Source of the DNA: Nakamurella leprariae | Lineage (GTDB): Bacteria > Actinomycetota > Actinomycetes > Mycobacteriales > Nakamurellaceae | Assembly (NCBI RefSeq): GCF_016918035.1 | Contig: NZ_JAERWK010000020.1 | Location: 124,001 to 188,000 of the forward strand | Direction of reading: 5' to 3' | Length of the DNA: 64,000 bases | Shown here: positions 1-17,412 of the stretch, piece after piece | Layout of the letters: each line of letters opens with the position of its first letter | How positions within the stretch are numbered: the stretch's first letter is position 1 | The notes under the pieces: model-generated | Told to the model about the DNA's origin: nothing | Database searches by the model: none | The model's input: only the letters and a program-made list of their open reading frames with translations | Position numbers and translations under genes: made by a program

Positions 1-887
1 ACGGCCAGGAAGTTGCCGTGCGAGGGCGACACGACCACCTCACCGAACCCGGTGTCCGCGACCACCTGCTCGACCCGTTCGATGTTGGCCCGGTTCACCC
101 GGCGCACCTGCTCCAGCCACGGCCCGCGCACCTTGAGCCCGGCGATGGCCGCCCGCTGCCCGACGATGCCGGCCCCCAGCGGATTGGCCGGCACCGCGGT
201 GAGCGCCGAAAGCAGTTGGGGCTCCGCGATCACCGCGCCCAGCCGCAGCCCGGCCAGGCCCAGCCACTTGGAGAAGCTGTACGTGGTGAAGGTGCCCTCC
301 GGGTACAGCTCGGCGACCAGGCTGTGCCCGGTCGCGAAGTGCCGGTAGGTGCAGTCGTGCACGATCAGCGACTGCGTCTCGCGGGCCAGCGCGACGATCG
401 CCTCGAGCTCGGCCCGGGCGTACCGACTGCCCAGCGGATTCAGCGGGTCGATCAGGTAGATGAGCGATCGCGGCTCGATGACCTCGGCGACCTGAGCGGC
501 GGTCAGCGTGCGGGTCGGGGTGTCGTAGACGTCCAGCGCCGACAGCGGCACCCCGGTACGACCCAGGAAACGCCCCGGCCACGGCCAGCCCGGGTCGGTG
601 GTGATGACCCGCGAGATCGTCGGGGCCAGCGTCATGCACAGGTGGTAGAGGCCGGCGACGGCGCCGTCGGTGATCCAGACCTGGACCTCGGGCAGGCCGA
701 TGTCCTCGCCCACCAGCCGGCGCAGTTCCTCGAAGCCGGCCGGTGGGGCGTAGACCTGGAAGTCGCGGTCCCGCACCGACTGCTCCAGCGCCTGCACCAC
801 CTCCGCGGGCGGATCGAGGTGCGTGGTGTTCTGCCCCATCCAGACCAGGTCCGGGCGGGCGAGCAGATCTTCGAACGAAGCAGCCAT
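1..887 (-). CDS. PLP-dependent aminotransferase class I/II, 3' part missing
   Basis: About 295 N-terminal residues are visible; the C-terminus lies beyond the window edge. The fold-type I hallmarks are present: ITDGAVAG (cofactor phosphate region), an N-P-L-G motif near residue 150, VHDCTY (Asp that pairs with the PLP pyridine nitrogen) and SFSKWLGLAG with the Schiff-base lysine at about residue 207. The ATG at 887 follows AGAGGA at a good distance. It is the last visible gene of the leftward run M20 hydrolase - LLM - M29-like - aminotransferase, 42 bp after the M29-like stop, so probably cotranscribed from the promoter near 4260. Substrate is unknown; it may transaminate a product of the pathway encoded upstream. 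Confidence 0.88.
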   Translation of the reverse strand, partial: MAASFEDLLARPDLVWMGQNTTHLDPPAEVVQALEQSVRDRDFQVYAPPAGFEELRRLVGEDIGLPEVQVWITDGAVAGLYHLCMTLAPTISRVITTDPGWPWPGRFLGRTGVPLSALDVYDTPTRTLTAAQVAEVIEPRSLIYLIDPLNPLGSRYARAELEAIVALARETQSLIVHDCTYRHFATGHSLVAELYPEGTFTTYSFSKWLGLAGLRLGAVIAEPQLLSALTAVPANPLGAGIVGQRAAIAGLKVRGPWLEQVRRVNRANIERVEQVVADTGFGEVVVSPSHGNFLA

Positions 888-929
888 GATGTCCTCTGTC
901 GTCAGTCGTACGGTCTGGAGATCGGCTGG

Positions 930-1913
930 TCAGTCATCGGCCAGCACGCCCGCCCGGATGACGGGGACGCCGTCGAGGTGGACGGTGGCGTCGCGCATGA
1001 CGCAGTCCAGGTGGGCCACGGCGTCGACGGTCCCGCCGTAGGCGATCGAGTTGCCGAACGCCACGTGCGCGCTGCCCAGGGTCGACTCGGTCTCCATGGG
1101 CACCCCGCACACCGATCCCTGCGGGTTCAGCCCGACCGAGACCTCGGCCAGGTTGGTCATCCTCGGGTCCCGGCAGCGGGCCATCATCTCGGTGAGCCGG
1201 GCCGCCTCGTCACCGTCGGTGCCCACCAGCAGTCCGTCGCGGACGTGCAGCACGGCCGGGGCGGGCACCGGACCCGGCCCCATGAACAGGAAGTCGGCGT
1301 CGATGACGATGACGCCGGTGCTGCTGCCCTCGACCGGGGCGGTGCCCGACTCGATGTCCGGCGGAGCCATGTACTCCCCCGGCTCCCGGGCCACCCCGGT
1401 CAGCGCCCGGCCGCGGCGACCGGCCACCGACCCGCGCAGGTCGGTGCCGGCCGGCGTGGTGATCCGGTAGGTCGAGGCCGCCTCCCAGGCCCGGGCCAGC
1501 CGGTGGGTGGTGCGGGCCAGGGCGTCGAAGTCGACGTCGAACGGCCCGCCCAGCCGGAACGTGCCCGCGGTGACCGCCGGCATGCACAGGTAGCGGGTCC
1601 CGGCCGCGGATGCCTCCCGTCGGGCCCGACTGGACCCGATGAACGTGCTGGTCAGCTCGATCCCGCAGTCGGCGGCGGCCAACGCCGCGGCGGTGTCCGC
1701 CGGTGGTTCGCTGCCGGGCAGCGGATACACCGGCAGCACCCGCTCCACCGGCTCTGCGCGGCGCTCCCGGATGCCGGCCATCAGCCCGGCGACCACAGCC
1801 CGGTCGGTCCCGGCGTCGGTGAGCAGCACGACCGTCTCCCCGGCCCGCAGACCCAGACAGGTGTCGAGCGCACGGGACACCGTCCGGTCCGGGAGCATCG
1901 GCATCGCGGTCAT
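930..1913 (-). CDS. M29 aminopeptidase T / NicX-like metalloprotein
   Basis: A 327-residue protein resembling the M29 leucyl aminopeptidase (aminopeptidase T) family. That family also includes NicX, the 2,5-dihydroxypyridine dioxygenase. The C-terminal half carries the family pattern of metal ligands: the Glu in NLAEVSVG, the Glu in METESTLG, the His in SAHVAFG and the His-Leu-Asp in AHLDCVM. The N-terminal half (GETVVLLTDAG) matches the small-molecule-binding lobe. It lies 68 bp downstream of an LLM oxidoreductase in the same leftward operon. In this heterocycle-type setting, a ring-cleaving or amide-hydrolysing role is more attractive than general peptidase activity, but this is inference. 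No strong Shine-Dalgarno precedes the ATG, so the start could lie a few codons downstream. Confidence 0.72.
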   Translation of the reverse strand: MTAMPMLPDRTVSRALDTCLGLRAGETVVLLTDAGTDRAVVAGLMAGIRERRAEPVERVLPVYPLPGSEPPADTAAALAAADCGIELTSTFIGSSRARREASAAGTRYLCMPAVTAGTFRLGGPFDVDFDALARTTHRLARAWEAASTYRITTPAGTDLRGSVAGRRGRALTGVAREPGEYMAPPDIESGTAPVEGSSTGVIVIDADFLFMGPGPVPAPAVLHVRDGLLVGTDGDEAARLTEMMARCRDPRMTNLAEVSVGLNPQGSVCGVPMETESTLGSAHVAFGNSIAYGGTVDAVAHLDCVMRDATVHLDGVPVIRAGVLADD

Positions 1914-1936
1914 CTGTCGGCATCCATCAGCCGGGG

Positions 1937-1987
1937 CCCATCAGACTGGCCCATCAGACTGGGCCCATCAGACGGTACCCATCACGC
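1937..1987. repeat. Tandem repeat, CCCATCAGACTGG unit, 3-4 copies
   Basis: Consecutive copies CCCATCAGACTGG, CCCATCAGACTGGG and CCCATCAGACGGTA are followed by a partial CCCATCACGC. They fill most of the 68-bp gap between the LLM gene and the M29-like gene and run into the LLM stop codon. The function is unknown. It may be a slippage minisatellite or an intercistronic RNA element. Confidence 0.75.
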
Positions 1988-2986
1988 AGTCGCCGCCGGG
2001 GCCGGGAAACAGGACGCGAACTGCGCGACGGTGGCCATCCGGTAGTCGGCGTCCCCGCCCAGCGGGAAGACGGTGAAACCGTCGACTCCCAGCGCCTCCA
2101 GGTTGGTGATGTGCTCGGCCACCGCGGCCTTGTCACCCGAGAGCGACATGCGGTGCACGAAGTCCTCGGGCAGCAGCGCGGCCGCCTTCGCCGCCTCCTG
2201 GAACTCGCCGCCCTGGTACATCCCGCGGACCCGCTCGATGAGCGCCGGATCGAGCCCGGCCAGCTCGCAGTACACCGGGGCCGTCTGCGGGAACCACGCC
2301 GCGATGGTCCGGGCCGCGGCCAGCGCGCGCTCGCGGTCGTCGTCCACCGCGCCGTAGCCGAACACCGAGATCTTCGGCCGCTCGGTGCGTCCCGCCTGCT
2401 GCACCCCGCGGTCGATGTGCTCCAGGGCGTACCGCAGCCCGTCCGGGTGCAGCCCGGCCAGCAGCACCACCCCGTCGGCCACCCGGCCGGCCAGCTCCAG
2501 CGTCTTCGGCCCGGACGCCGAGATCCACACGGGGATCTCGGTCGGCACGTCGAACCGCATGTGCGCGTCGTCCAGGGCGAACCCGCGGTACTGGCGGGTC
2601 ACCGTGGCTCCCGTCCACAACTCGCGTGCGGCGACGATCGCGTCCTCGAGCAGGGCCAGCTTCGCCGGCCTGAGCCCCAGGGCCAGCAACGGCCGGTCCC
2701 CGGCACCGAGCCCGTAGACGGCCCGGCCGCCGGACATCTCGTTGAGCGTGGCCGCGGCGACCGCGCCGAGCGCCGGGTGCCGGGTGACCGGGTTGGTCAC
2801 CGCGTTGCCCAGGGTCATCCGCGCGGTGCGCATCGCCGCGATGGCCAGGTACATCGGGCTGTACTTGGAGTGCAGCGACGAGTCGGTGAGCCAGAACTCG
2901 TCGAAGCCCAGCCGTTCGATCTCCGTGACCATGTCCCCGAACTGCGCCGAGGGGTACACGGGCTGTAGTGCGACTCCGGTCCTCAT
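1982..2986 (-). CDS. LLM-class F420/FMN-dependent oxidoreductase
   Basis: A 334-residue luciferase-like TIM-barrel protein. The N-terminus MRTGVALQP, the segment EIERLGFDEFWLTDSS, the TNPVTRHPA loop and SGGRAVYGLGAGD are typical of F420-dependent LLM enzymes such as methylene-tetrahydromethanopterin reductase relatives. The start ATG at 2986 follows GGAAGGAGTGCCCTG. Longer upstream frames are arginine/serine-rich and not protein-like. It sits 28 bp after the M20 hydrolase stop and before the M29-like gene, in one leftward operon. Likely a reductase or monooxygenase in the breakdown of an imported heterocycle; cofactor choice (F420 or FMN) cannot be fixed from the sequence. Confidence 0.85.
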   Translation of the reverse strand: MRTGVALQPVYPSAQFGDMVTEIERLGFDEFWLTDSSLHSKYSPMYLAIAAMRTARMTLGNAVTNPVTRHPALGAVAAATLNEMSGGRAVYGLGAGDRPLLALGLRPAKLALLEDAIVAARELWTGATVTRQYRGFALDDAHMRFDVPTEIPVWISASGPKTLELAGRVADGVVLLAGLHPDGLRYALEHIDRGVQQAGRTERPKISVFGYGAVDDDRERALAAARTIAAWFPQTAPVYCELAGLDPALIERVRGMYQGGEFQEAAKAAALLPEDFVHRMSLSGDKAAVAEHITNLEALGVDGFTVFPLGGDADYRMATVAQFASCFPAPAATA

Positions 2987-3014
2987 CAGGGCACTCCTTC
3001 CCTCCGGCGCCGGC

Positions 3015-4235
3015 TCAGGCCTGCTCGGACCCGGCCAGCGCCATGGCGCAGAACGTCGCGTACACGCGGGTGGCTTCGATGATGTCCTCGACCGGGAGGT
3101 GCTCGTCGGGGCAGTACACCGGCTCCCCACCGGGCCCGAAGATGATGGTGGGGATGTCCTGGCCGAAGCTGGCGGTGTCACCGAGCCAGCCGGCCACCTG
3201 CAGGTCCGGCTCCTGACCCCGCACGGCCTCGACGGCTCGGCGCATCAGGCCGGTCACCGGGGCCTCGGGCGAGGCCAGGTACCCGCTCTTGACGTCGGCC
3301 AGCACCACCTCGGCCTGGAAGCGCGGCTCGGACTCCGCGGCCCGGGCCAGGCAGGCGTCGATCTCGGCGCGCACCTGCTCGATGGTGACGCCCGGCTGGG
3401 GCCGGCAGTCGACGCGGATGACGCACTCGTCCGGGATCATCGACGGCCCGCCCGGCGGCAGCCCGCCGTAGACGCGACCCGGCGCCATGTAGGTCTCCGG
3501 CCCGAACAGCTCGACCACCCAGTCCTCGAGCTGCGGCCGCAGCGCCGACTTGTCGAGCTCGATGATGGCGTGCGCGGCCAACATGTTGGCGTTCACCGCC
3601 AGCGGCTTGTGGCAGGTGTGCGCCGAGACGCCGCGGACGATGATGTCGAAGTAGTACCGCCCGCGGTGCCCCAGGAAGATCTCGTTGTCCGACAGCTCGC
3701 CGAGGATGCAGTAGTCCGCCGAACGGTCCTTGAAGTACTCGATGGAGCCGAGCTGGTCGCCCATGTGGTCGGAGACCGCGGCCATCGCGACTCGCCCGTT
3801 GACCGGCAGACCCGAGGCGCGCAGCGCCTCGATGGCCACGATCTGGCAGACCAGCGCCGCCTTCATGTCCATGATCCCGTGGCCGTAGATCGCGCCGTCG
3901 ATGAGTTCGCCGGAGAACGGCTCGGTCTTCGTCCAGCCGTGTGAGACCGGCTTGGTGTCCATGTGCCCGGTGAGCACGACGGTCGGCCCCTGTTCCGGGG
4001 CGTCCCCGAAGTCGACGTGCCCGATGGCGTTCGGGCGCTCCGGCAGCACCGGCTGCAACTCGACGCCGGCGAAGCCCGACTCACGCATGACCTCGGCCAG
4101 GTGTGCGGCCAGCGCGCCCTCCTCGCCGAGGACGCTGGGGATGCGGCTGACCTCCTGGACCAGCCGGACCAGGCGGTCCGTGTCGATGCAGGCCGACACC
4201 TGCTCGTAGAGCGATGTGGCAGTGGGCGCGCCCAT
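3015..4235 (-). CDS. M20 family (ArgE/DapE/YlmB-like) hydrolase with altered active site
   Basis: A 406-residue M20-fold amidohydrolase/peptidase. Metal-site motifs are visible: TGHMDTKP (H91, D93), HGIMDMK (D123), a Glu in ILGELSD, the dimer-domain His in VSAHTCHK and the late His in DEHLP. The segment that normally reads D-E-E-x-G, with catalytic base and bridging Glu, instead reads SDHMGDQLG (residues 155-163), placing His and Met where the Glu pair is expected. The start at 4235 is chosen because GGAGGA stands 4-5 nt upstream; an in-frame ATG at 4247 has no ribosome site. YlmB, which deformylates formyl-aminopyrimidine in thiamine salvage, belongs to this family, and ThiXYZ/TenA-like genes lie nearby. 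First gene after operator 4263-4275. Confidence 0.85.
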   Translation of the reverse strand: MGAPTATSLYEQVSACIDTDRLVRLVQEVSRIPSVLGEEGALAAHLAEVMRESGFAGVELQPVLPERPNAIGHVDFGDAPEQGPTVVLTGHMDTKPVSHGWTKTEPFSGELIDGAIYGHGIMDMKAALVCQIVAIEALRASGLPVNGRVAMAAVSDHMGDQLGSIEYFKDRSADYCILGELSDNEIFLGHRGRYYFDIIVRGVSAHTCHKPLAVNANMLAAHAIIELDKSALRPQLEDWVVELFGPETYMAPGRVYGGLPPGGPSMIPDECVIRVDCRPQPGVTIEQVRAEIDACLARAAESEPRFQAEVVLADVKSGYLASPEAPVTGLMRRAVEAVRGQEPDLQVAGWLGDTASFGQDIPTIIFGPGGEPVYCPDEHLPVEDIIEATRVYATFCAMALAGSEQA

Positions 4236-4262
4236 CGGTTCCTCCATCCGTGTATGAGATAT

Positions 4263-4275
4263 CAGATCTTATCTG
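4263..4275. promoter_or_regulatory. Putative GntR operator, site A (CAGAT-CTT-ATCTG)
   Basis: A perfect 5+3+5 inverted repeat, CAGATCTTATCTG, lies 28 bp upstream of the M20 hydrolase start. It is preceded by ATGAGATAT, which resembles the flank of site C. The same CAGAT-N3-ATCTG core appears at 5215 and 12734, each time in a promoter region of this island. Two GntR/FCD regulators encoded at 4359 and 6896 are the natural candidates to bind it. Confidence 0.7.
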
Positions 4276-4312
4276 CTGGCCCGGCCGGGCACAGCGGCCC
4301 GGACCACAGTCC

Positions 4313-4332
4313 GTGTGAACAGTTCGTTACAC
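4313..4332. promoter_or_regulatory. Second shared element, site A2 (imperfect dyad)
   Basis: GTGTGAACAGTTCGTTACAC is an imperfect dyad (GTGT...ACAC). Extended to 4314-4335 it matches 15 of 22 positions with 5139-5160 and 14 of 22 with 12790-12811. It stands 37 bp further from the gene than operator A. It could be a second regulator site or a conserved promoter region. Confidence 0.4.
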
Positions 4333-4358
4333 CTGCGGCGGGGCCCGGTCCCCCTGCG

Positions 4359-5021
4359 TCAGTCGTCGACCGCGGGCAGGGCCGCGATCTGCACCTCGCG
4401 CACCTCGCGCAGGTGGGCCCGCAGCACCTCCTGTGCGCCCACGACGTCGTCGTCGCGCAGGGCATCCAGGATGGCGCGGTGCTGGGCCAGCGAGTCCGAG
4501 AAGCGGGCCGGGCCCGCCCCCAGCCTGCCCAGCCGGCGCAGGTGCAGCGCCAGCCGCTCGATGACACCGCGCAGCAGGGCGTTGTCGAGCAGGTCGAAGA
4601 ACAGGTCGTCGAAGGCATCCAGACTGGTGCCCGCCTCGTCCAGGTCTCCCTGGTCCAGCGCCGCCGCGGTCTGCGTGATGTTGGCCTCCAACCGGTCCAG
4701 CACCTCCGGTCGGCCGGCCGCCATCCGCACGCACTCGCACTCCAGCAGCTCACGCGCCTCGTAGAGCTCCCGGGCGTCCTCCGCCGAGTAGGCCCGGGCC
4801 CGCGCGCCGCGGTACGGGGCGATCTCGACCAGGCCGTCGTGCTCGAGGCGGACGAGTGCCTCCCGGATCGGCGTCTTGCTGACGCCGAACCGGACGGACA
4901 GCGCGGTCTCACGCATCGACTCGCCCGGCCGGAACTCGTGCGCGATCAACGCGTCCCGCAGTCTGCGGTAGACGAGATCCTTCACCTGCACGGGCGCAAC
5001 GGCGTCCCCGCTCACGGTCAT
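4359..5021 (-). CDS. GntR/FCD family transcriptional regulator 1
   Basis: A 220-residue regulator with an N-terminal GntR winged helix (VYRRLRDALIAHEF..., recognition helix in FGVSKTPIREALVRLE) and a C-terminal all-helical FCD ligand-binding domain (YEARELLECECVR, then QHRAILDALRDDD). The ATG at 5021 follows GGGAGGGGCC; the longer upstream frame lacks a ribosome site. It is divergent from the aldehyde dehydrogenase gene, with operator 5215-5227 between them. It is clearly paralogous to the regulator at 6896: both share SKTPIREALVRLE, DGLVEIAPYRGARA and the start of the FCD domain. A likely repressor of the island, released by a pathway metabolite (often an organic acid for FCD proteins). Confidence 0.92.
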   Translation of the reverse strand: MTVSGDAVAPVQVKDLVYRRLRDALIAHEFRPGESMRETALSVRFGVSKTPIREALVRLEHDGLVEIAPYRGARARAYSAEDARELYEARELLECECVRMAAGRPEVLDRLEANITQTAAALDQGDLDEAGTSLDAFDDLFFDLLDNALLRGVIERLALHLRRLGRLGAGPARFSDSLAQHRAILDALRDDDVVGAQEVLRAHLREVREVQIAALPAVDD

Positions 5022-5138
5022 GCGGCCCCTCCCGCGTCGTGGCCGGTTCCGACAGGCGGGCCGACTTCGTGCTCCGAACATGCTATCTGGGTCAAGGTGA
5101 CGCGAGACCCCGTCTGCGGCAACGTTGTCCGGTCGAAT

Positions 5139-5160: not shown

Positions 5161-5214
5161 GGCCGAGCCTCCGCCCGCGCTTGCGCGGCGCGATAGATTC
5201 GGGTGATTGCATAT

Positions 5215-5227
5215 CAGATCTCATCTG
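5215..5227. promoter_or_regulatory. Putative GntR operator, site B (CAGAT-CTC-ATCTG)
   Basis: A perfect inverted repeat, CAGATCTCATCTG, in the divergent intergenic region between GntR regulator 1 (start 5021) and aldehyde dehydrogenase (start 5270). It ends 42 bp before the dehydrogenase start. The position suits both autoregulation and control of the dehydrogenase. It shares its core with sites at 4263 and 12734. Confidence 0.72.
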
Positions 5228-5269
5228 CCGAGCGGGGACCGACCGTCCGGCACAGCGGACGGAGCCCCC

Positions 5270-6769
5270 ATGGTCACTGATCTCGAAGCGACGCTGCGGC
5301 CGGAGGTCACCGCGTTCCTGCATCGTGACCACGCCTTGATCATCGGCGACCAGCGGCCGGCCGCCTCGGACGGCGGCCTGCTGGACGTGCACGACCCGGC
5401 CACCGGCGCGCTCATCGCCCGCGTCGCGGCGGGCACCGCGGCCGACGTCGACGCCGCGGTGGCGGCGGCGCGGGCCGCGCTGCCGGTCTGGAACGACCTG
5501 TCCCCCGCGGCCCGCGCCGATCTGCTGTGGCGCCTGGGCGAGGAGATCGAGCGCCGGGCCGTCGAGTTGGGCCAGCTGGACACCCTGGACAACGGCAAGC
5601 CCACCAGCGAGTCGGCGGCCCTGGACGTGCCGCTGTGCGCCTCGATCTTCAAGTACTACGCCGGCTGGGCCACCAAGATCGACGGCGAGACCATCACCCC
5701 GTCGGGCGGCGCCGCGTTCCACGTCTACACCCGGCGCGAGCCGGTCGGCGTGGTCGGCGCCATCATCCCGTGGAACTTCCCGCTGCTGATGGTCGGCTAC
5801 AAGCTCGGGCCGGCGCTGGCCGCCGGCAACACCGTGGTGCTCAAGCCCGCCGAACAGACGCCGTTGTCGGCGCTGCGGCTGGTCGAACTGGCCCTGGAGA
5901 TCGGCTTCCCGCCCGGGGTGATCAACGTGGTCACCGGCGACGGTGAGGGCGCCGGCGCCCCGCTGTCCCGGCACCCCGATGTCGACAAGATCACCTTCAC
6001 CGGCGAGAACGCCACCGGACGAAAGATCCTCGAGGCGTCCGGGGCCAACATGAAGCGGCTGTCGCTGGAGCTCGGCGGCAAGTCGCCGAGCCTGGTCTTC
6101 GACGACGCCGACCTGGACGCGGCCATCGCCGGCACCTTCGGCGCCGTGTACTTCAACCAGGGCCAGTGCTGCATCGCCGGCGCCCGGGTGTTCGTGCACC
6201 GCTCGCTGTACGAGCCGTTCGTCGACGGCCTCGCCGCCAAGGTGCGGGCCATCCGGCTGGGCAACGGACTGGACCCGGCCACCACGATGGGGCCGGTGGT
6301 CAGCGGTGAACAGCAATCCCGGGTGAACGGCATGATCACCTCGGGCGTCGAGCAGGGCGCCACGGCGGTGGTCGGTGGCGGCACCGTGCGCCTGCCCGAA
6401 CTGGCCGACGGCTTCTTCGTCGAGCCCACCCTGTTCACCGACGTGCACCGGGACATGACCATCATGCAACGCGAGATCTTCGGTCCGGTCGGCATGGTCG
6501 GCACGTTCGACACCGAGGAGGAGGCGATCGCGCTGGCCAACGACACCCAGTTCGGCCTGGCCTCCGGCATCTGGACCCGCGACGTCAAGCGCACCCACCG
6601 CGTCGCCGCGAAGATCAACGCCGGCGTGGTCTGGGCCAACACCTACGGCATGTTCGACGTGGCCATCCCCTACGGCGGCTTCAAGGCCAGCGGCTACGGC
6701 AAGGAGCTGGGTCGCGAGGCGCTCGATCCCTACCTGCAGACCAAGACGGTGTGGATCGACCTGGGCTGA
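5270..6769 (+). CDS. NAD(P)-dependent aldehyde dehydrogenase
   Basis: A 499-residue aldehyde dehydrogenase of normal length. Residues expected for catalysis are in place: IIPWNFP with the oxyanion Asn at 169, the NAD-binding [17 protein letters not shown] with the general-base Glu at 267, and FNQGQCC with the nucleophilic Cys at 301. The ATG at 5270 follows GGACGGAGC. It oxidises an aldehyde to the carboxylate. In this island the obvious partner is the GMC oxidoreductase at 12846, which could make that aldehyde from an alcohol such as hydroxymethylpyrimidine. It is divergent from GntR 1, with GntR 2 downstream on the same strand after a G/C hairpin. Confidence 0.95.
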
Positions 6770-6784
6770 GCACGGCGATGCCGG

Positions 6785-6821: not shown

Positions 6822-6895
6822 GTCGTGTTCCGGTGCCGCCGGCGGCTCGTGGCACGATGAGCCACGCGACGGCACCGGAACGAGGGAGTCACCAG

Positions 6896-9322: not shown

Positions 9323-9435
9323 CGTGTGCTCCGTCCCACTGCCGGTGGCTCTGCTGGTGTCACTGCCCGTCCCACTGCCCCGTGTCACTGTCACTGTTCC
9401 CGTCCCATGTGCTGCCGTCGTGTCGCGCGCCCGGG
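9323..9435. repeat. Low-complexity intergenic stretch between tenA and thiX-like genes
   Basis: Within about 113 bp the words CACTG, GTCCCACTGCC and GTGTCACTG recur many times. No gene or clear terminator is visible. It may be slippage-derived spacer; the downstream permease keeps its own ribosome site. Confidence 0.5.
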
Positions 9436-10169: not shown

Positions 10170-11243
10170 TCAGCCTTCGAGGTAGTCGTTGGTGAAGTAC
10201 TGGCTCCAGTCGGGCGCCTCGGTCAGCGGGTCGCCGTCGGCGTCCACCAGCAGACCGGAGTCGAACAGGAAGGCCCCGAGCGCGTCCCACTGCTCCTGCG
10301 TCTGCCGGCCGAACTGCCCCTGGTCGTCGAGCATGAACTGCTCCGACAGCATGGTCTGGCTCTCGACCAGGAAGTCCAGGTCAGTGAGCACGTCGGCGTT
10401 CTCCTCCTGCAGGATCGCCGCGGCGCCGGCCGGATCGGCGATGGCGTCCTCGTAGCCACGGGCCATGGCCTGCACGAAGCCCTTGGCCACCTCGGGGTTG
10501 TCCTGCATCCAGGTGGTGTTGCCGACCACGATGACGGCGTAGTTGTCCGGGAAGCCGTAGTCGACGTAGTTGAAGTTCTTCAGCTCGACGCCGCGGTGCT
10601 CGGCCTCGATGCCCTCCCAGGCGATGAAGGGCACGGTGAAGTCGACGTCCCCGGAGTACAGCGCCTCGTAGGCGGTGGTACCCAGGATGACGCTCTCGAA
10701 CTCCCCGGTGCCACCGGCGTCCTGGATGACGGCCTTCATGGTCGTCTCCTCGGCCGGGGTGCCGAACCCGCCGTAGACCAGTCCGTCGAGGTCGGCCGGA
10801 CTCTGGATGTCGTCCCGGCTGGCGAGCACGCTGATGGCCGTCGTCCAGGTCTGCTCGACGGCCAGCACCGACTGCAGGTCGGCCCCGGCGGCCATCGGGA
10901 CGGCCGACTGGTTCTGGAAGCCGATGCCGAACTCGGCCTGGCCAGCGTCGATGAGGACCTCGGGACTGCTGTTGTTGTAGGGCAGGATCTCGACGTCGAT
11001 GCCGGCATCGGCGAAGTAGCCCTTGTTGATGGCCACGTACAGGCCGGTGTGGTTGGTGTTCGGTGTCCAGTCCAGCGCGAACCGCACGGTGGTCGGCGAC
11101 TCGGGCTGGGACGACCCGGACGACCCGCCGGTGGTGCCGGCGGAACTCTCGGAGCCGGAATCGCTCGAGCAGGCGGCGAGAGCGCCGGCCAGCACGAGCG
11201 CCGTCGCGGCGGCAGCCGCGGCGCGAAGCTTCTTCACGGTCAC
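10170..11243 (-). CDS. thiY: NMT1/THI5-like substrate-binding lipoprotein (ThiY-like)
   Basis: A 357-residue exported binding protein. A basic N-terminus and hydrophobic helix end in lipobox LAAC (Cys at about 25), followed by a Ser/Gly linker. The mature protein starts with RFALDWTPNTNHTGLYVA, a signature of the NMT1/THI5 family that binds thiamine pyrimidine precursors. It continues with DVEILPYNN and GFGTPAEE loops. AAAGGG precedes the start; the GTG at 11237 is an equally possible start. No TPP-riboswitch-like motifs were found in the 118 bp upstream. It delivers substrate to the ThiX/ThiZ-like components in the same operon. Confidence 0.9.
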   Translation of the reverse strand: MTVKKLRAAAAAATALVLAGALAACSSDSGSESSAGTTGGSSGSSQPESPTTVRFALDWTPNTNHTGLYVAINKGYFADAGIDVEILPYNNSSPEVLIDAGQAEFGIGFQNQSAVPMAAGADLQSVLAVEQTWTTAISVLASRDDIQSPADLDGLVYGGFGTPAEETTMKAVIQDAGGTGEFESVILGTTAYEALYSGDVDFTVPFIAWEGIEAEHRGVELKNFNYVDYGFPDNYAVIVVGNTTWMQDNPEVAKGFVQAMARGYEDAIADPAGAAAILQEENADVLTDLDFLVESQTMLSEQFMLDDQGQFGRQTQEQWDALGAFLFDSGLLVDADGDPLTEAPDWSQYFTNDYLEG

Positions 11244-11361: not shown

Positions 11362-12687
11362 TCAGTGGTCCCGGCGGACCACCGTCATGCGGTTCACGGT
11401 GCGGCGGAAGGCCGCGTTGGTCTCGCGCACGATGCGGTCCTCGTCGACCGTCAACAGCTGACGGCCGCGCATGAGGACCCTGCCGTCCACGATCGTCGTG
11501 TCGACCGCCGATCCGTTGGCGGCGAAGACCAGGTGGCTGGTGATGTGGGTGGCGGTGTCCCGCAGCAGCGGAGTGAACTCCACCGAGTTCGTCTCGACCA
11601 GGATGATGTCGGCCTTGGCCCCGGGGACCAGCTGGCCGGTCTCGTGCCCGAGGGCGCGGGCTCCGTTGCGAGTGGCCATCCGCAGCACGTGGTCGGCCGG
11701 CATCACGCCGGCGTCCTGACGCTGCGCCCGGTGCATGAGCGAGGCGTACTTGAGCACCTCGAACATGTCCGCGCTGTTGTTGCACTCCACCGCGTCGTGG
11801 CCCAGGCCGACGTTGATCCCGGCCGCTTGCATCTCGGGCACCCGGGCGATGCCGTTGCCGAGCTTGGCGTTCGAGCTGGGGTTGTGCGAGATCGACGTGC
11901 CGGTCTCGGCCATCATTCCGATCTCGGCGTCGGACAGGTGCACGCAGTGCGCCGCGACCACGTCGGGACCCAGGAAACCGAGCTCGTATGCCAGTTCGGT
12001 GGGCCGGCGACCGAACCGCTCCAGGCTGTTCTCCACCTCGGACATGGACTCGTTGAGGTGGATGTGGATGCCGATGCCGAGGTCGGTCGCCGCCGCGCGC
12101 ACGTCCCGCAGCAGTTCCGGCGAGGCCAGTGGCAGCCACTCGATGCCCATCCGCACCTGGACGCGCCCGCCGGCCGCGCCGTGACTGCGGTGGAAGGCGT
12201 CGATGTTGTCCTGCAGGGTGTCCAGGTCGTGCTCGTCGGTGGCGATGTCGTTGGACAGCACCGCCCGGATGCCGGTCTCCTCGGCCGCCACGGCCAGGGC
12301 ATCCAGCCGGCGGTACATGTCGTTGACCGTCGTCACCCCGGCCTTGACGGACTCCGTGTAGCTGGCCATCGCCGCCCAGTAGGCCGCGTCGTGGTCCAGG
12401 GCCCGGATCATCGGGTACCAGCACTCGTCGAGGTACTCCCACAACGGCATGTGGTCGTTGTAGCCCTTGCCGAGCGCGGTGTGGAAGTGCAGGTCGACCA
12501 GCCCGGGCATGATGACCTTGTCGGTGGCATCGATGATCTCGGCGCCGGCGGCGGTCTCCGGCTCGGCGTCGGCCGGACCGATCCACGAGATGCGGTCGCC
12601 GTCGACGACCACGGTGCCGCGCTCCAGCCAGGTGCCCGCGTCATCGAGGGTCAGCACCATGCCGCCGCGCAGGACGAGCTGAGACAT
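11362..12687 (-). CDS. Amidohydrolase superfamily deaminase (TrzA/MtaD/SsnA-like)
   Basis: A 441-residue cyclic-amidohydrolase protein. Metal ligands are visible: LHFHT (H67, H69), HIHLNES, the His in AAHCVHLSD and the late Asp in GLGHDAVECNNSADMF. The last motif has His where GTD is usual. The family removes amino or chloro groups from triazines, guanine, methylthioadenosine and related rings, so deamination of a 4-aminopyrimidine is plausible but unproven. First gene of the operon amidohydrolase - thiY-like - tenA - thiX-like - thiZ-like, directly downstream of operator C. AAGGGG precedes the ATG. Confidence 0.9.
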   Translation of the reverse strand: MSQLVLRGGMVLTLDDAGTWLERGTVVVDGDRISWIGPADAEPETAAGAEIIDATDKVIMPGLVDLHFHTALGKGYNDHMPLWEYLDECWYPMIRALDHDAAYWAAMASYTESVKAGVTTVNDMYRRLDALAVAAEETGIRAVLSNDIATDEHDLDTLQDNIDAFHRSHGAAGGRVQVRMGIEWLPLASPELLRDVRAAATDLGIGIHIHLNESMSEVENSLERFGRRPTELAYELGFLGPDVVAAHCVHLSDAEIGMMAETGTSISHNPSSNAKLGNGIARVPEMQAAGINVGLGHDAVECNNSADMFEVLKYASLMHRAQRQDAGVMPADHVLRMATRNGARALGHETGQLVPGAKADIILVETNSVEFTPLLRDTATHITSHLVFAANGSAVDTTIVDGRVLMRGRQLLTVDEDRIVRETNAAFRRTVNRMTVVRRDH

Positions 12688-12725
12688 CGGGCCCCTTCCG
12701 ATCGTGTCCGTCCACGGATCACATA

Positions 12726-12748
12726 TGAGATCTCAGATTCGATCTGAG
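12726..12748. promoter_or_regulatory. Putative GntR operator, site C (double palindrome)
   Basis: CTCAGATTCGATCTGAG (12732-12748) is a perfect 7+3+7 inverted repeat containing the CAGAT-N3-ATCTG core. It overlaps TGAGATCTCA (12726-12735), itself a perfect palindrome. The site is 39 bp upstream of the amidohydrolase start. It is the strongest of the repeated sites in this island. Confidence 0.75.
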
Positions 12749-12845: not shown

Positions 12846-14234
12846 TCAGGGCTGCAACCCGAGGTCCTCGAGGATGATGCCGCCGGCCTTCCAGCCGATG
12901 GCCATGGTGACCAGGTTGGGGCCGCCGTCCGGGATCTTCGGCATGATCGAGGCGTCCACGATCTTCAGGTTGCCGGCGCCGATGACGTCGAGCCGGCGGT
13001 CGACGGTGCGGTCCATGCCGCACGAGGCGACCGGGTGGTTGTAGGTCTCCACCCGCCGCCGCAGCTCGCCCTCGAGATCGCCGGATCGCCACCAGGCGTC
13101 GCCCGGCACCGTGACCAGTCCGGTGGCGGCCAGGTCGTCGATGAGCGCGGCCGTCCGGGTCACGGCCACGGCCATCCGCGCCAGGTCGGAGGGCTCGACC
13201 AGGTGGCGCAACCGGATGACCGCCCGGTCGTCCGCCCCGCGGGTGATGCTGCCGCGGCTCACCGGCTGCATGAGCGCGACCGACACGCTCCAGCTGTCCC
13301 GGGGTGCGGCGTGGTCGTAGAGCCACTCCGAGAACGGGAAGACCTGGAACTCGTCGGTCGGGTCGTCGTGCACCGGCGCCCGCAGCAGCGACCCGGAGAC
13401 GGGCCGGGCGAAGATGTCCGCCTCGTCGCGGGCCTGCACGTTCATCATCACCCACGGGTGGTCCTGCAGACCGACCCCGATCTGCGGAGCGTCGATGCCC
13501 GACCGCCAGAGCACCTCGGGGGTGCCGTAGGTGCCGCAGGACACCACGACGAGATCGGCCGCCAGCGTCTCCGCGCCGTCCGGTCCCTCGATCTCCACCC
13601 CCACCGCCCGGGAACCCTCCATCACCACCCGGCGCACCATGGTCCGGTCCCGGAGCTGGATGCGGGACCGCAGCAGCGGGGCCACGGCCGCCAGGGCCCC
13701 CCAGCGCCCGCCGTCCACCCGGTTCGTCGGCCACGGTCCGTACCCCTGGGTGCCAGGTGCGTTGTGGTCCGGGCACTCCCGGTGACCGGCGCGGGCGCAC
13801 GCGGCGAAGAACGCCTCGTCCAGCGGACCCTGGGACAGCCGGGTGACGTGGATGGGGCCGGCGTCGCCGTGGTACGGGCGGTCGCCGAACTGCTCGTCGG
13901 TCTCGATCGCGCGCATGGCCGGCAGCAGGTCGTCCCACTGCCATCCCGGTCCCCAGCCGTCGAACCCGCTGGGCTGGCCGCGCGAGCCGGCCGCGGCGTT
14001 GACCGTCGAGCCGCCGCCGAGGACCTTGCCGCGGATGAGATGCGCGCCGGTGTCGGCGTCCGAGTAGTCCCAGTCGTGCTCGGGGTACCCGTGTTCGTGC
14101 AGGAACCGGGCCGGGACCGGGTCACCGGGGTCGATGCCGGCCTCGAGCACGGTGACGTCGGCGGCGTCGGCGATGCGGTGGGCGGCGAGCAGCCCACCGT
14201 TGCCGCCCCCGATGATGACGACCTTGGGCTTCAC
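12846..14234 (-). CDS. GMC-family FAD-dependent oxidoreductase
   Basis: A 462-residue flavoprotein. The N-terminal Rossmann motif IIGGGNGG and the Glu in VTVLEAG bind ADP; KVLGGGSTVN is the GMC signature around the FAD. The C-terminal block YNHPVASCG ... VDASIMPKIPDGGPN carries the active-site His and Asn region. It is shorter than typical choline or glucose oxidases (about 530-560 aa). GMC enzymes oxidise primary alcohols to aldehydes; thiamine oxidase/dehydrogenase activity is known in this superfamily. It overlaps the upstream amidohydrolase by 4 bp (ATGA). Together with the aldehyde dehydrogenase at 5270 it could convert a hydroxymethyl group to a carboxylate. Confidence 0.92.
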   Translation of the reverse strand: MKPKVVIIGGGNGGLLAAHRIADAADVTVLEAGIDPGDPVPARFLHEHGYPEHDWDYSDADTGAHLIRGKVLGGGSTVNAAAGSRGQPSGFDGWGPGWQWDDLLPAMRAIETDEQFGDRPYHGDAGPIHVTRLSQGPLDEAFFAACARAGHRECPDHNAPGTQGYGPWPTNRVDGGRWGALAAVAPLLRSRIQLRDRTMVRRVVMEGSRAVGVEIEGPDGAETLAADLVVVSCGTYGTPEVLWRSGIDAPQIGVGLQDHPWVMMNVQARDEADIFARPVSGSLLRAPVHDDPTDEFQVFPFSEWLYDHAAPRDSWSVSVALMQPVSRGSITRGADDRAVIRLRHLVEPSDLARMAVAVTRTAALIDDLAATGLVTVPGDAWWRSGDLEGELRRRVETYNHPVASCGMDRTVDRRLDVIGAGNLKIVDASIMPKIPDGGPNLVTMAIGWKAGGIILEDLGLQP

Positions 14235-15250
14235 GCCGCGACCTCCAGTCCCAGCAGCGCGGCGAAGTTGTCACCCATGACGCCGTCGAGCTTGTGCTGC
14301 GCGATGGGCGGCAGGCCGAGCCGGTCCGCCTCCTCGTTCACCGTCAGCAACTTGTCCCGCAGCGCCACCGGGTCGTACAGGAAGCCCGGGTAGTCGGTCC
14401 CGAACATGATCTTCTCCAGCGGCACGAACATCGGCTCCGCCCGCGACAGGTACAGGAACAGGTCTCGCCGGGTGACGGTGGCGATGTGGTAACTGATCTC
14501 GGTGTAGAAGTTCGGGTGCTTGGTGAGCATGAACATCGCCTCGTCGACCCAGGGCGTGCCGCAGTGGGCGATGATCACCTTCAGGTCGCGGAACTCGCGG
14601 CCCAGGTCGTCCAGCATGGCCGGACGGGCGTACTCCATCTTGGCGTCGATCCGGGTGGAGCCGGCCTGGTGGATCATCACCGGGATGCCCAGGTCCCGCG
14701 CCGCGGCGTAGATCGGGAAGGCGTACTCCCGGTCGGCCGGCGACCAGTGCTGGTACATCGGGTACAGCTTGACCCCGGACAGCCCGTCCTGCTCGACCAT
14801 CCGGCCCAGCTCGTCGACGGCGGCCCGGACCCCGCGGTAGCGCGGGTTGACCGACCCGAACCCGATGATCGTCTCGGGCTGCTGGCGCACGCAGCCGGCG
14901 ATGTACTCGTTGCACCGCTCCGGATGCGGGTCACCGGTGACGTCGGTCTGGCCGTGCACGTCGACCGTCCCGATCAGCCGGCCGTCCAGCCACTGCGGGC
15001 TGATGGCCAGGGCCACCAGCTTGTCGAACCCGGGGTGCGCGGCGACGGTCTCGTCCGGGCCGACGACCCCGAACCCGTCCATCCCGTCCTCGGTCTCGAC
15101 GGCCTCCCACTCGTGCTCGGTCGGGCAGCGGTGCGACGGCATCCGGCCGTGCGCCCGGTAGATGCACAGCGAGCCCTCGCGTCCGTACTGCTTGGTGAAG
15201 TCGGCGTCGCTGGCCAGCGACAGGATGTGGGTGTGCGCGTCGATCTGCAC
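14231..15250 (-). CDS. Amidohydrolase_2 (ACMSD/isoorotate-decarboxylase-like)
   Basis: A 339-residue TIM-barrel amidohydrolase-2 protein. Ligands in order are DAHTHIL (HxH), the His in VMIHQAG, the His in IIAHCGTPW and the Asp in MFGTDYPG. This subgroup includes the non-oxidative decarboxylases ACMSD, gamma-resorcylate decarboxylase and isoorotate decarboxylase, as well as hydrolases. In a pyrimidine pathway, decarboxylation of a ring carboxylate made by the GMC and aldehyde dehydrogenases would fit; this is inference. The next gene (GMC) starts within its stop codon. It lies 84 bp downstream of tenA copy 2. Confidence 0.85.
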   Translation of the reverse strand: MQIDAHTHILSLASDADFTKQYGREGSLCIYRAHGRMPSHRCPTEHEWEAVETEDGMDGFGVVGPDETVAAHPGFDKLVALAISPQWLDGRLIGTVDVHGQTDVTGDPHPERCNEYIAGCVRQQPETIIGFGSVNPRYRGVRAAVDELGRMVEQDGLSGVKLYPMYQHWSPADREYAFPIYAAARDLGIPVMIHQAGSTRIDAKMEYARPAMLDDLGREFRDLKVIIAHCGTPWVDEAMFMLTKHPNFYTEISYHIATVTRRDLFLYLSRAEPMFVPLEKIMFGTDYPGFLYDPVALRDKLLTVNEEADRLGLPPIAQHKLDGVMGDNFAALLGLEVAA

Positions 15251-15334
15251 GGGAACGGCTCCTCAGGTCGGGCAGGGAGTTCGGGCAGGACGGTGGGCGG
15301 GCTGATGGGCGCGGGGTGGGCGGGACGAGACCCC

Positions 15335-16060
15335 TCAGCCGGTCTGGTCCGGCCAGAGCGTGCCGTGCAGCCCCTGGTCCCAGAACTGGCGCTCCAGACG
15401 GCATCCGGTGACGAAGATGTCGGCCAGCCGGGCCCGCTTGCGCTCGGTGAGCTCGGCCAGCTCGGGGTCGAAGGCCGCGCGCAACCCGTCGACCACGGCG
15501 GCGTAGTCGTCGGAGGCGAAGAAGGCGATCCAGTCGGCGTACACCGGATGGTCCACCACCTCCGACTGCAGGTGCCGGGCGATGTCGCCGTAGCTCCAGG
15601 CGCACGGCAGCAGCGCGGCCGAGATGTCCGCCGCGTCACCGGATCCGGCCAGCGCCAGCAGCCAGGAAGTGTAGGCCACGGTGGCCGGGGCCTTGACCGT
15701 CTCGGCCTCGGGCACCGGCCCGGCCAGCTCGACGACCGCGTCCCGCAGCCGCTCGTTCTGCGGGATCTCGACGTCGACGATGTTCATCACCGAGCGGGCG
15801 AAGGACGTCAGCGTGGCGTCGTCCTGGGCCCGGGCCGCCCCGGAGGCCAGCATCCGCGCGTAGTCGGGCAGGTAGAGCAGGTTCTGCGTGACGTAGAAGC
15901 GGAACCGCTCCGGCGGCAGCACGCCGGTGGCCAGCCGGAGCGGGAACTCGTGGTGCACCAACGGGTCGTACACCGCCCGGGCGTGCTCGCGCAGTTCCGC
16001 GGTCGTGCGCGGCGCGCGGTCCGAGGTGGTGCTCGTCGGGCTGGTCATCACACTGGTCAC
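15335..16060 (-). CDS. TenA-like protein, copy 2, with active-site Asp replaced by Asn
   Basis: A 241-residue TenA/PQQC-fold protein. The catalytic Cys (LLPCAWSYG, C153) and C-terminal Glu (RLERQFWDQ, E223) are kept. The Asp that normally holds the aminopyrimidine is Asn in FYVTQNLLYL (N60), whereas copy 1 has Asp. The GTG at 16060 overlaps the stop of the NtaA-like monooxygenase (GTGA), with GGAG 8 nt upstream, so the two are translated as a pair. The substitution suggests a changed substrate, perhaps a deaminated (oxo) pyrimidine, or loss of hydrolase activity. Confidence 0.85.
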   Translation of the reverse strand: MTSVMTSPTSTTSDRAPRTTAELREHARAVYDPLVHHEFPLRLATGVLPPERFRFYVTQNLLYLPDYARMLASGAARAQDDATLTSFARSVMNIVDVEIPQNERLRDAVVELAGPVPEAETVKAPATVAYTSWLLALAGSGDAADISAALLPCAWSYGDIARHLQSEVVDHPVYADWIAFFASDDYAAVVDGLRAAFDPELAELTERKRARLADIFVTGCRLERQFWDQGLHGTLWPDQTG

Positions 16061-17412
16061 AGGGCCATCTCCGGCGCTCGGGTCTGGGTGAAGTGGTCTC
16101 GCAGGGTGGTGCCGGCGTACTCGGTGCGGTACAGACCGCGGTCCTGCAGTTCGGGGACGACCAGGTCGACGAACTCCTCGATGCCCTCGGGCAGCACCGA
16201 GGCGTTGACGTTGAAGCCGTCGGCGGCGCGGGAGGTGAACCACTCGGCCATGTGGTCGGCGACCATGCTCGGGGTGCCGATGCTGGTGAGGTGACCGCCA
16301 CCGGCGGAGATGCGGCTGAGCATCTCCCCCACCGTCACCCGACGTCCGTCGTCGTCACGGGACAGTGTCTGCATCATGACGTACCGGCCCTTGGGACCCT
16401 GGAAGTCCTCCAGCGACGGCAGTTCCGGCATCTCGTCGTCCGGATCCCAGTGTGAGCAGTCGATGCCGATGTAGCCGCTGAGGGTGTCCAGCTGCTTGGG
16501 CAGCGACTTGAGCGAGTCCAGCCAGCGCTTCTTGTCCCGCGCCTCGGCCAGGGTGTCGCCGATGACGGTGACGATGCCGGGCAGCACGGTGATGTCCTGC
16601 TCGCGCCGGCCGTGGGCCACCGTCCGGCGCTTGATGTCCTCGTAGTACTCCCGCGCGTCCTCGAGCGTGGAGCCGATACCGTAGATCGCCTCCGCGTACC
16701 GGGCGGCCAGCTCCCGACCCTCCACCGACGCCCCCGCCTGTACCAGCACCGGGCGGCCCGCCCGGGTCTGCGGGATGTTGAGGCCGCCGTGGATCCGGAA
16801 CTCCCGCCCGTGGTGGTCCAGCCGGCCCAGCCGGGAGGCGTCCAGGAACACCTCGCCCTGCTTGTCCATCACCACCGCGTCGGCCGGGTATGAGTCCCAC
16901 AGCTCGAACAGCAGCTCGGCGAACTCCTGGGCGCGGGCGTACCGGGTGGTGTGGTCGGGCAGGGCGTCCATGCCGTGCAGCCGCGCCTCGACGTCGCTCT
17001 GCGAGGTGACCAGGTTGACGCCGGCCCGGCCGCCCGAGATCAGGTGCAGCGAGGCGATGGACCGGGCCGCGTTGGCCGGGTGGTGCAGCGAACTGGACAC
17101 GGTGGCGACCAGGCCGATGCGTTCGGTCCGGGCCGCGATGTAGGACAGCAGGGTCAGCGGCTCGAACATGGACGCGGTGCTGACGTCCTCGCGCTGGTAG
17201 ACCGCCTGCTGGCTGTCGGCCAGGAAGACGGCGTCGAACAGGCCCCGCTCGCAGGTCCGGGCCAGGTCGGCGAACCAGTCCGGGGAGAAGGCGTCGGCCA
17301 GGGCGGTGGAGGCCCGCTGCCACGCGGAAGGATGGTGGCCGTACAGGCGCATGAACAGGTTGAGGTGCATCAGGCGACCGCTGTCGGCCGTCGCGTGCTG
17401 GTCCTTGGACAC
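16057..17412 (-). CDS. NtaA/SnaA/DszA-family FMN-dependent monooxygenase (LLM)
   Basis: A 451-residue luciferase-like monooxygenase of the NtaA/DszA type: LNLFMRLYGHHPSAW start, FDAVFLADS, SGGRAGVNLVTSQ and VLVQAGASVEGRELAARYAEAIY. These are two-component, FMNH2-dependent oxygenases. The related RutA opens the uracil ring, which makes a ring-opening role credible here. The start is GTG at 17412 with GAGG upstream. First gene of the run monooxygenase - tenA2 - amidohydrolase_2 - GMC. No flavin reductase was seen next to it. Confidence 0.92.
   Translation of the reverse strand: MSKDQHATADSGRLMHLNLFMRLYGHHPSAWQRASTALADAFSPDWFADLARTCERGLFDAVFLADSQQAVYQREDVSTASMFEPLTLLSYIAARTERIGLVATVSSSLHHPANAARSIASLHLISGGRAGVNLVTSQSDVEARLHGMDALPDHTTRYARAQEFAELLFELWDSYPADAVVMDKQGEVFLDASRLGRLDHHGREFRIHGGLNIPQTRAGRPVLVQAGASVEGRELAARYAEAIYGIGSTLEDAREYYEDIKRRTVAHGRREQDITVLPGIVTVIGDTLAEARDKKRWLDSLKSLPKQLDTLSGYIGIDCSHWDPDDEMPELPSLEDFQGPKGRYVMMQTLSRDDDGRRVTVGEMLSRISAGGGHLTSIGTPSMVADHMAEWFTSRAADGFNVNASVLPEGIEEFVDLVVPELQDRGLYRTEYAGTTLRDHFTQTRAPEMAL

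Follow-up and report, generated by a model that had tools for sequence, protein, structure and literature searches.

Does a locus that combines a ThiXYZ-like importer and two TenA proteins with a long series of oxidative and hydrolytic enzymes recover a thiamine-type pyrimidine, or destroy it? The question is raised by a gene set of Nakamurella leprariae at the left end of a 64,000 nt stretch of contig NZ_JAERWK010000020.1 (positions 124,001 to 188,000, or G000:C39:124001-188000, where G000 denotes the organism's own 4.47-Mb genome), here called the window. An earlier note, made from the letters of this DNA, had proposed that the pyrimidine is degraded and not merely salvaged. Every gene named there was confirmed by gene calls and family searches, with codon composition of the coding type for nearly all (TenA1 was taken from open frames). 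The comparisons below lead us to consider it fairly probable that these genes form a regulon for the catabolism of a thiamine-type pyrimidine, with substrate and reactions predicted from sequence. Degradation is supported by separate salvage genes, by hosts that carry ThiC and by the presence of lower-pathway enzymes.

A probable regulon with a thiamine-pyrimidine-type importer

On the minus strand, NtaA, TenA2, AH2, GMC, TrzA, ThiY, TenA1, ThiX and ThiZ follow one another closely, with 4-base overlaps for NtaA/TenA2 and AH2/GMC given the estimated starts. A second minus-strand unit consists of M20, LLM2 (a luciferase-like monooxygenase (LLM)-family protein), M29 and an aminotransferase (AT), then an amidase beyond the left end of the window, and the plus strand carries an aldehyde dehydrogenase (ALDH) and a GntR/FCD gene. 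The set had been taken to start at base 1; instead, the same contig carries ~4.3 kb more of it leftward. An AT-rich palindrome recurs in intergenic stretches of this locus, in a genome stretch of ~70% GC. The pattern ATATNAGATCYNAT, with at most one mismatch, gave seven matches at four places in the window as compared with 0.01 expected (palindromes counted once per strand), and eight matches at five places in the whole genome, every one inside the set, with none for the reversed control. Four of the five sites served to define the pattern and are therefore not independent evidence; independent weight comes from the fifth site (55-68 bases upstream of a RutA-like LLM), from the lack of the pattern in the rest of the genome and from its recurrence in other genomes. 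Clusters of Microbacterium sp. 18062 (L024, L112), Demequina (L025), Parafrankia sp. EUN1f (L028) and G010 (L018; G003 and G010 are relatives of the same genus) contain exact copies. Of 158 loci, 14 carry the exact operator; these 14 come from five genomes, the organism's own included, and the remainder, many of them non-cluster loci, have no copy. The confinement of five operator places to the set argues for one regulon. In the earlier note, control appeared to lie with GntR proteins. The two GntR genes and the shared operator agree with this, and the two GntR/FCD proteins likely read that operator, though the pairing itself is our inference; a search of the window's first 20 kb for a GTATAC-type GntR operator found none. 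Behind the fifth copy stand the RutA-like LLM and a second TRZ-type amidohydrolase (L016:9793-12277). The true start of the ALDH is probably further inside the open frame, 3´ of the operator.

The ThiXYZ-like importer with an NMT1/THI5-type binding protein is upheld by family matches and by the ThiY matches in the Protein Data Bank (PDB), which at E 1e-3 or better were 4nmy, 3ix1 (binding formyl-aminopyrimidine, FAMP) and THI5/THI13 only. Its closest relatives in sequence are ThiY/THI5 proteins rather than binders of sulfonate or nitrate, and a sulfonate or nitrile transporter was rejected because the PDB matches were only to thiamine-pyrimidine-type binders. A ThiY query of 21 genomes of a Paenibacillus family gave matches in 18. 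Among the five best of these loci, ThiY, ThiX and ThiZ stood together in 5/5 and a thiamine pyrophosphate (TPP) riboswitch directly preceded ThiY in 3/5, with no M20 match in the Paenibacillus-family loci. The gene order ThiY, ThiX, ThiZ is common to these operons and the window, where TenA1 is inserted between ThiY and ThiX. In the organism's own genome, a ThiY paralogue with 57% identity follows a TPP riboswitch and a TenA gene (L068). Together, the data support a predicted ligand of the thiamine-pyrimidine type for the importer of the cluster.

The absence of a TPP riboswitch and of thi biosynthesis genes, reported in the earlier note, held up: no Rfam family, TPP riboswitch included, reached threshold in the window, no TPP riboswitch was detected in 15 related loci searched (positive controls were detected), and no thi kinase or coupling gene is among the genes of the set that were classified. 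The genome has separate salvage genes, including a third TenA and the ThiY paralogue behind a TPP riboswitch; because these are TPP-controlled and located elsewhere, salvage appears to be a separate function. ThiC is present in five of 12 other cluster genomes (5/15 overall), which suggests that hosts with their own synthesis of hydroxymethylpyrimidine (HMP) use the set too. In addition, the set extends to enzymes acting at the coenzyme A (CoA) and amino acid level, superfluous for salvage. A pure salvage operon was rejected on the basis of the separate TPP-controlled genes and of ThiC in 5/15 cluster genomes.

We then asked how widely the families occur together. When contigs were scanned with AH2, 40 loci proved orthologous (L020-L059, 61-88% identity) and three further matches were remote; the 40 AH2-carrying genomes are mostly actinobacterial, and most have many of the other genes. 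Across these 40 genomes, we counted TRZ-type proteins in 37, TenA in 33, LLM2 in 30, an alcohol oxidoreductase in 30, ALDH in 27, M29 in 22, M20 in 20, a CoA-transferase in 19, M20b in 18, ThiX/Y in 17, a mutase in 15, a methylmalonyl-CoA epimerase-like (MCE-like) protein in 15 and AT in nine. These counts rest on tblastn, as the first gene caller missed genes, and short contigs understate gene content; the organism's own and repeated genomes were merged, some regions had been fetched for a TenA or LLM2 match, and the genes of the window were entered by hand. Free of the latter two biases are the TenA counts for stretches around AH2 only: 40 TenA genes in 26/40 loci (596 kb), and a TenA in 17/23 loci of at least 15 kb. 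By comparison, 17 related genomes, taken whole, gave 15 TenA matches, those of three cluster genomes included. TenA thus occurs near AH2 beyond chance, a co-occurrence that the earlier note had named as a check. Sets that conserve the enzymes without TenA/ThiXYZ, named in the earlier note as a refuting case, are the minority, given that in the regions fetched TenA or ThiX/Y was found in 33/40 genomes and neither in seven. On plasmids, none of the 247 records matching AH2 reached 60% identity, and the ten listed were at or below 31%. One group of metagenome-assembled genomes (MAGs; L037, L040, L042, L047 and L053, two titled Acidimicrobiia) carries hydantoinase A/B-like genes, assigned by eye, adjoining TenA2, the second TRZ protein and AH2, and constitutes a third cluster variant.

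Two lower modules and their mutases

The comparison of relatives divides the lower half of the set, as judged from sequence, into two exchangeable forms, with AT, often with an amidase, or with a CoA-transferase, an epimerase and a B12 mutase. Type I (M20-LLM2-M29-AT-amidase, with AT and amidase adjacent in type I relatives) was found in the genome of the window and eight others, with no M29 seen in L033 and L050. Type II (M20, B12 subunit, mutase, family III CoA-transferase, M20b, LLM2, MCE-like protein, M29) was found whole or in part in 19 genomes. For the regions fetched, AT occurred in nine genomes, a CoA-transferase or mutase in 19 and both in none, and three LLM2 loci had neither ending.

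The mutases of the clusters are distinct in sequence. All 15 distinct cluster mutases have the motifs FFSG[CN]SG and [IV]HVMG[YW]DEA, replacing the segments HxQT and LHTN of the methylmalonyl-CoA mutases aligned; the other mutases read carry HxQT or GVQVNS, and LHTN or LQLP, at those positions. The cluster motifs were present in 0/21 other mutases read from 12 genomes, with three unreadable. On rereading, the 30 mutase loci (30 of 43 PF01642 matches had a locus to read) comprised six cluster mutases with FFSG, 21 others without it and three without any motif. For six type I genomes, PF01642 had no match in Demequina and Microbacterium and two to four in G000, G064, G065 and G067, where the readable proteins were without the cluster motifs (one of G065 gave none). 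The cluster mutases keep the Arg of methylmalonyl-CoA mutase, which we take to bind the free carboxylate in that enzyme. Many type II sets include an MCE-like partner, and MeaB was found in G003 and G010. The CoA-transferase, MCE-like protein, MeaB and mutase point to a 2-substituted malonyl-CoA as the predicted substrate, and C4-C5(C7)-C6 of HMP would be a matching branched skeleton. Since AT and mutase replace each other, the intermediate shared by both forms may be 2-(aminomethyl)malonate.

Upper-pathway enzymes, TenA proteins and rival readings

Oxidation of CH2OH to COOH by GMC and ALDH, proposed in the earlier note, is the best supported step of the predicted route, as three unrelated alcohol oxidoreductase families occur with ALDH across the loci: GMC, zinc-dependent alcohol dehydrogenase (Zn-ADH) and a sugar-lactone-oxidase-type FAD enzyme. 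The last was observed in Nocardioides variants (L046, L051, L052, L054 and L055; TIGR01679 in L046, tblastn alone in L054), where a second ALDH and a D44/F163 TenA also lie downstream of AH2. TrzA matched PRK06038 at 363.7 bits, below the cut-off of 609, and has close relatives at 56-89%.

LLM2 suggests that the ring is attacked differently from what had been proposed. The best PDB matches of the LLM2 profile were coenzyme F420 enzymes, with methylenetetrahydromethanopterin reductase (MER) at the top (203.7 bits), and 11 of the 12 sequences listed were F420 enzymes or unnamed LLMs behind them. A strict orthologue was found in 13 of 14 cluster genomes searched (485-581 bits; best other match listed, 181), of which two, G000 and G069, were known beforehand to carry it. 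CofE was detected in 15/16 genomes, the exception, G094 (a MAG), being the genome in which no LLM2 was found. This suggests that LLM2 reduces the ring with F420 as the predicted cofactor, and its F420/MER type makes reductive ring attack more likely. In G010, an F420-NADP oxidoreductase-like gene (PF03807, L019:2346-3122) adjoins the cluster M20 gene. A close relative of the RutA-like LLM adjoins ThiZ in Nocardioides mangrovi and Herbiconiux.

For the other hydrolases, only part of the earlier assignments was retained. The M29 protein, with no Pfam or NCBIfam match for the window protein, gave NicX 7cn3 (E 5e-12) as the sole PDB match up to E 1 with an 11-sequence profile (63-74% identity to the window protein; an AF2 model with a mean predicted local distance difference test (pLDDT) of 61 was not used). 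The NicX fold is thus supported and HxD is kept, but Glu253 aligns with NicX His265, which is presumably an iron ligand, and this replacement makes the protein more hydrolase-like than dioxygenase-like, as far as the alignment predicts. The M20 protein is an M20 hydrolase, but its matches are general ArgE/DapE matches and YlmB, the family named earlier, was not traced. Its neighbours in relatives are LLM2, AT, M29 or the mutase unit; every M20 gene seen lies within the lower module, and a deacylase acting there is therefore more likely than a YlmB-type deformylase. The AH2 model (pLDDT 77.7) aligned with VIA-align Z scores of 20.9-22.7 to 3irs (uncharacterized), dihydroxybenzoate decarboxylases, aminocarboxymuconate semialdehyde decarboxylase (ACMSD) and isoorotate decarboxylase (IDCase), and Foldseek placed LigJ hydratase first. 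Of its metal-site motif, H194, H229 and D286 are invariant in 14 sequences and H6 and H8 nearly so. Fold and motif are of the isoorotate-/ACMSD type, a fold that includes hydrolases and hydratases.

These results bear on the order of steps given in the earlier note: oxidation, deamination, decarboxylation by AH2, oxygenative opening by LLM and M29 proteins, amide hydrolysis and transamination of a beta-alanine-type product. The NtaA-type and RutA-like LLMs behind the operator, the ACMSD/IDCase fold of AH2 and the aminotransferase of the window type would fit, but close orthologues of NtaA and the RutA-like LLM were found only in window-type sets (7/40 and 5/40 genomes, compared to 30/40 for LLM2), M29 is without the NicX His265, and a CoA-transferase or a mutase with a diacid-type Arg replaces the aminotransferase in 19 genomes. 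The decarboxylation is doubtful, as the CoA-transferase-epimerase-B12 mutase module implies that a malonate-type diacid survives. We consider this order unlikely.

The two TenA proteins both match PF03070 and differ in the pocket. In alignment with the B. subtilis sequence, TenA1 has the canonical residues D44/Y163/C135/E205, and TenA2 carries D44N and Y163F with Cys135 and Glu205 kept. We take D44 and Y163 to be the canonical pocket, residue 44 to contact the 4-amino side of the pyrimidine and Glu205 to be catalytic. Most TenA2/TenA_b proteins of the clusters carry N44 and F163, with C135, E205 and Y112 retained; TenA1, TenA_a and TPP-controlled TenA proteins have D44 and Y163, and the second TenA of five Nocardioides loci is D44/F163. 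Over 57 rows, which include non-cluster TenA and identical or same-gene rows (L039/L083, L085/L092, L052/L054), residues 44/163 were NF in 30, DY in 18, DF in six, NW in two and NY in one. In the TenA tree, DY rows were separated weakly (71/87) and NF was not one clade (four changes). Of 14 genomes whose AH2 locus had no nearby TenA, ten had a TenA match, of the N44 type in seven (one, G102, is the genome of L039, where an N44 TenA adjoins AH2); as neighbours, these TenA genes have ALDH, ADH, ThiX/Z, TRZ or the mutase unit in the seven regions read. Cys135 is described as catalytic (PMC9839694). By its residues, TenA2 is a predicted TenA-family enzyme with an altered pocket, not to be filed as thiaminase II, and N44 would fit a 4-oxo pyrimidine.

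The same two substitutions would also be expected if the Thi-type parts had been recruited for a different N-heterocycle, for example another substituted pyrimidine or something resembling a vitamin. Ligands of NMT1-type proteins vary across the Pfam family. Against this, the cluster ThiY is still 57% identical to its TPP-controlled paralogue and a D44/Y163 TenA lies beside ThiY in window-type loci. We give this reading a minor share of the probability.

A number of observations weigh against a catabolic regulon for the thiamine pyrimidine, or against parts of the route proposed for it. ThiC was absent from G000, G003, G010 and seven of 12 further cluster genomes, and these bacteria therefore need the pyrimidine that they would degrade. 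In seven of the 40 genomes, neither TenA nor ThiX/Y was seen in the regions fetched (outside these regions, three carry TenA of the D44/Y163 type only, and the other four gave no match to TenA), and the exact operator was absent from the remaining fetched clusters, for example those of Herbiconiux and Nocardioides mangrovi. The ThiY-like protein has a weak match to the NCBIfam family SsuA_fam (43.7 bits, cut-off 163.5), and the roles of TenA residues 44 and 163 are presumed. The fold of AH2 is decarboxylase-type, and the malonate-type intermediate of type II would be hard to explain if AH2 is a decarboxylase. F420 enzymes are common in Actinobacteria, which makes the CofE match weak. Given NtaA and the RutA-like LLM, oxygenative steps may still occur in the window's own type.

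Could the cluster instead supply HMP to thiamine synthesis, with the other enzymes trimming unusual precursors? ThiC is missing from 10/15 cluster genomes tested, the organism's own included, and ThiXYZ-TenA is a salvage module. Countering this are the separate TPP-controlled salvage genes, the five ThiC-carrying cluster genomes, the set's lack of a thi kinase or coupling gene among its classified genes and the type II CoA and mutase chemistry, useless for salvage, such that we view this as very unlikely. Detoxification of oxythiamine- or bacimethrin-like thiamine antimetabolites in place of nutrition, which a TenA2 with D44N would suit through a 4-oxo pyrimidine, is highly improbable given a lower pathway to the amino acid or CoA level that exceeds this need.

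Proposed route and relation to known pathways

For the catabolic regulon, the most likely substrates would be HMP, its aminomethyl or formyl form, or a 4-oxo derivative. In an order that we infer, ThiXYZ would import the pyrimidine, TRZ-type amidohydrolases would swap the 4-amino group for oxo, and the altered TenA2 (D44N/Y163F) would cleave the 5-methylene substituent to give CH2OH, which GMC (elsewhere Zn-ADH or the FAD oxidase) and ALDH would oxidize to the 5-carboxylate. The ring would be reduced by F420-dependent LLM2 and opened by amidohydrolases (second TRZ, AH2, M29), after which the amidase or M20b could remove the amide and M20 the acetyl group derived from the 2-methyl-C2 unit, leaving an amino-malonate-type acid. 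Type I bacteria, N. leprariae included, would transaminate this acid; in type II, the family III CoA-transferase would make the CoA ester, to be rearranged by the epimerase and B12 mutase. The two GntR/FCD proteins would probably control the units via one operator. The boldest form of this proposal would be a new catabolism of the B1 pyrimidine in which the compound is deaminated, an altered TenA acts on its 4-oxo form, the ring is dearomatized with F420 and 2-(aminomethyl)malonate has two interchangeable fates, either transamination or CoA activation and a new coenzyme-B12 mutase giving aspartyl-CoA from 2-(aminomethyl)malonyl-CoA. This form is rather unlikely, and we offer it as tentative.

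The set shares a ThiY-type binder, ThiX/Z, TenA and an M20 enzyme with the ThiXYZ-YlmB-TenA FAMP salvage system of Bacillus. In contrast to that system, the cluster has GntR genes and a shared operator in place of a TPP riboswitch, a large oxidation/reduction/hydrolysis set, a second, altered TenA, and an M20 protein tied to the lower module with a general ArgE/DapE match. Reductive pyrimidine degradation proceeds by dihydropyrimidine dehydrogenase, dihydropyrimidinase and beta-ureidopropionase. Should LLM2 be a reductase, the cluster would follow the same logic of reducing the ring, opening it by hydrolysis and removing an acyl group, with an F420/MER-type LLM in place of an NADPH enzyme, an acetyl in place of a carbamoyl group, and TRZ, Amidohydro_2 and M29 proteins in the cluster. 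The Rut pathway has a counterpart in the RutA-like LLM behind the operator in the organism's own genome, but no further Rut gene is among the genes classified. The M29/NicX fold is shared with the nic pathway, and N-acyl hydrolysis near the end of the route with vitamin B6 catabolism; the cluster differs from both in having Glu for His265 and no pyridine hydroxylase among the classified genes. Like methylmalonyl- and 2-hydroxyisobutyryl-CoA mutases, the cluster mutases have a PF01642 large subunit and a separate B12 subunit, but they differ in the FFSG[CN]SG and [IV]HVMG[YW]DEA motifs, with the methylmalonyl-CoA mutase Arg kept. No described pathway with this gene set, of which the earlier note knew none, was found in the literature searched, with most subscription papers outside that search. 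The title of one Burkholderia metabolomics study (PMC4475313) claims a thiamine degradation pathway.

Table 1. Genes and operator sites of the set (positions in the window unless prefixed L016, which lie to its left on the same contig)
Feature	Position	Strand	Evidence or remark
RutA-like LLM	L016:9793-10905		RutA match 233.4 bits, below cut-off 498.3
Second TRZ-type amidohydrolase	L016:10955-12277		53.6% to TrzA
Amidase	L016:12375-13859		PF01425; after aminotransferase
Aminotransferase, remainder	L016:13796-14098		
Pyridoxal phosphate (PLP) aminotransferase (AT), 5´ part	1..887	-	PF00155; cut at window edge, continues left
M29/NicX-fold protein, predicted metallo-hydrolase	930..1913	-	11-sequence alignment; profile match NicX 7cn3
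LLM2, MER-type luciferase-like, predicted F420-dependent reductase	1982..2986	-	PF00296
M20 (ArgE/DapE-type), predicted deacylase	3015..4247	-	PF01546/PF07687; TIGR01910 171 bits, cut-off 217.6 not reached
Operator palindrome	4259..4274		before M20-LLM2-M29-AT-amidase unit
GntR/FCD regulator 1	4359..5081	-	PF00392 + PF07729
ALDH	5207..6769	+	PF00171 584.7 bits
Operator palindrome	5211..5226		before ALDH-GntR2
GntR/FCD regulator 2	6833..7564	+	PF00392 + PF07729
ThiZ-like ABC ATPase	7606..8460	-	PF00005
ThiX-like ABC permease	8450..9439	-	PF00528
TenA1	9436..10110	-	PF03070 64.8 bits; start estimated, open frame to 10290
ThiY-like (NMT1/THI5) binding protein	10170..11243	-	PF09084 187.1 bits
TrzA, TRZ/ATZ-type amidohydrolase, predicted deaminase or ring hydrolase	11362..12687	-	PF01979
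Operator palindrome	12723..12738		one mismatch; before TrzA
GMC-family alcohol oxidoreductase	12846..14234	-	PF00732 + PF05199
AH2, Amidohydro_2 (ACMSD/IDCase-fold) protein	14231..15250	-	PF04909 115.7 bits; marker gene
TenA2	15335..16060	-	PF03070 115 bits; start estimated, open frame to 16243
NtaA/DmoA-type FMN monooxygenase, predicted	16057..17412	-	TIGR03860 459.9 bits, cut-off 279.7
Operator	17443..17456		before NtaA-TenA2-AH2-GMC unit

Near the right edge of the cluster, the window encodes an ATP-dependent DNA ligase (PRK03180, 671.3 bits; 18132-19850) that looks unrelated. Further genes in the window encode an ABC ATPase and a ZnuA-type binding protein (27493-29317), another LLM protein (33784-34650; a search of the genome with the LLM2 profile gave 25 matches) and an FMN/FAD oxidoreductase of the old-yellow-enzyme type (55218-57227).

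Vitamin B1 is a scarce shared nutrient, as are its pyrimidine pieces, and many aquatic microbes reportedly do not synthesize the vitamin (PMC10881298, PMC12236431). If the proposal is true, actinobacteria would possess a widespread route for destroying the pyrimidine, a sink so far missing from the B1 cycle, and the reading of TenA/ThiXYZ presence as salvage in meta-omic surveys would change. The route would also provide a genetically defined system. Its TenA subclass, its F420-type reductase and its subfamily of B12 mutases all have predicted reactions.

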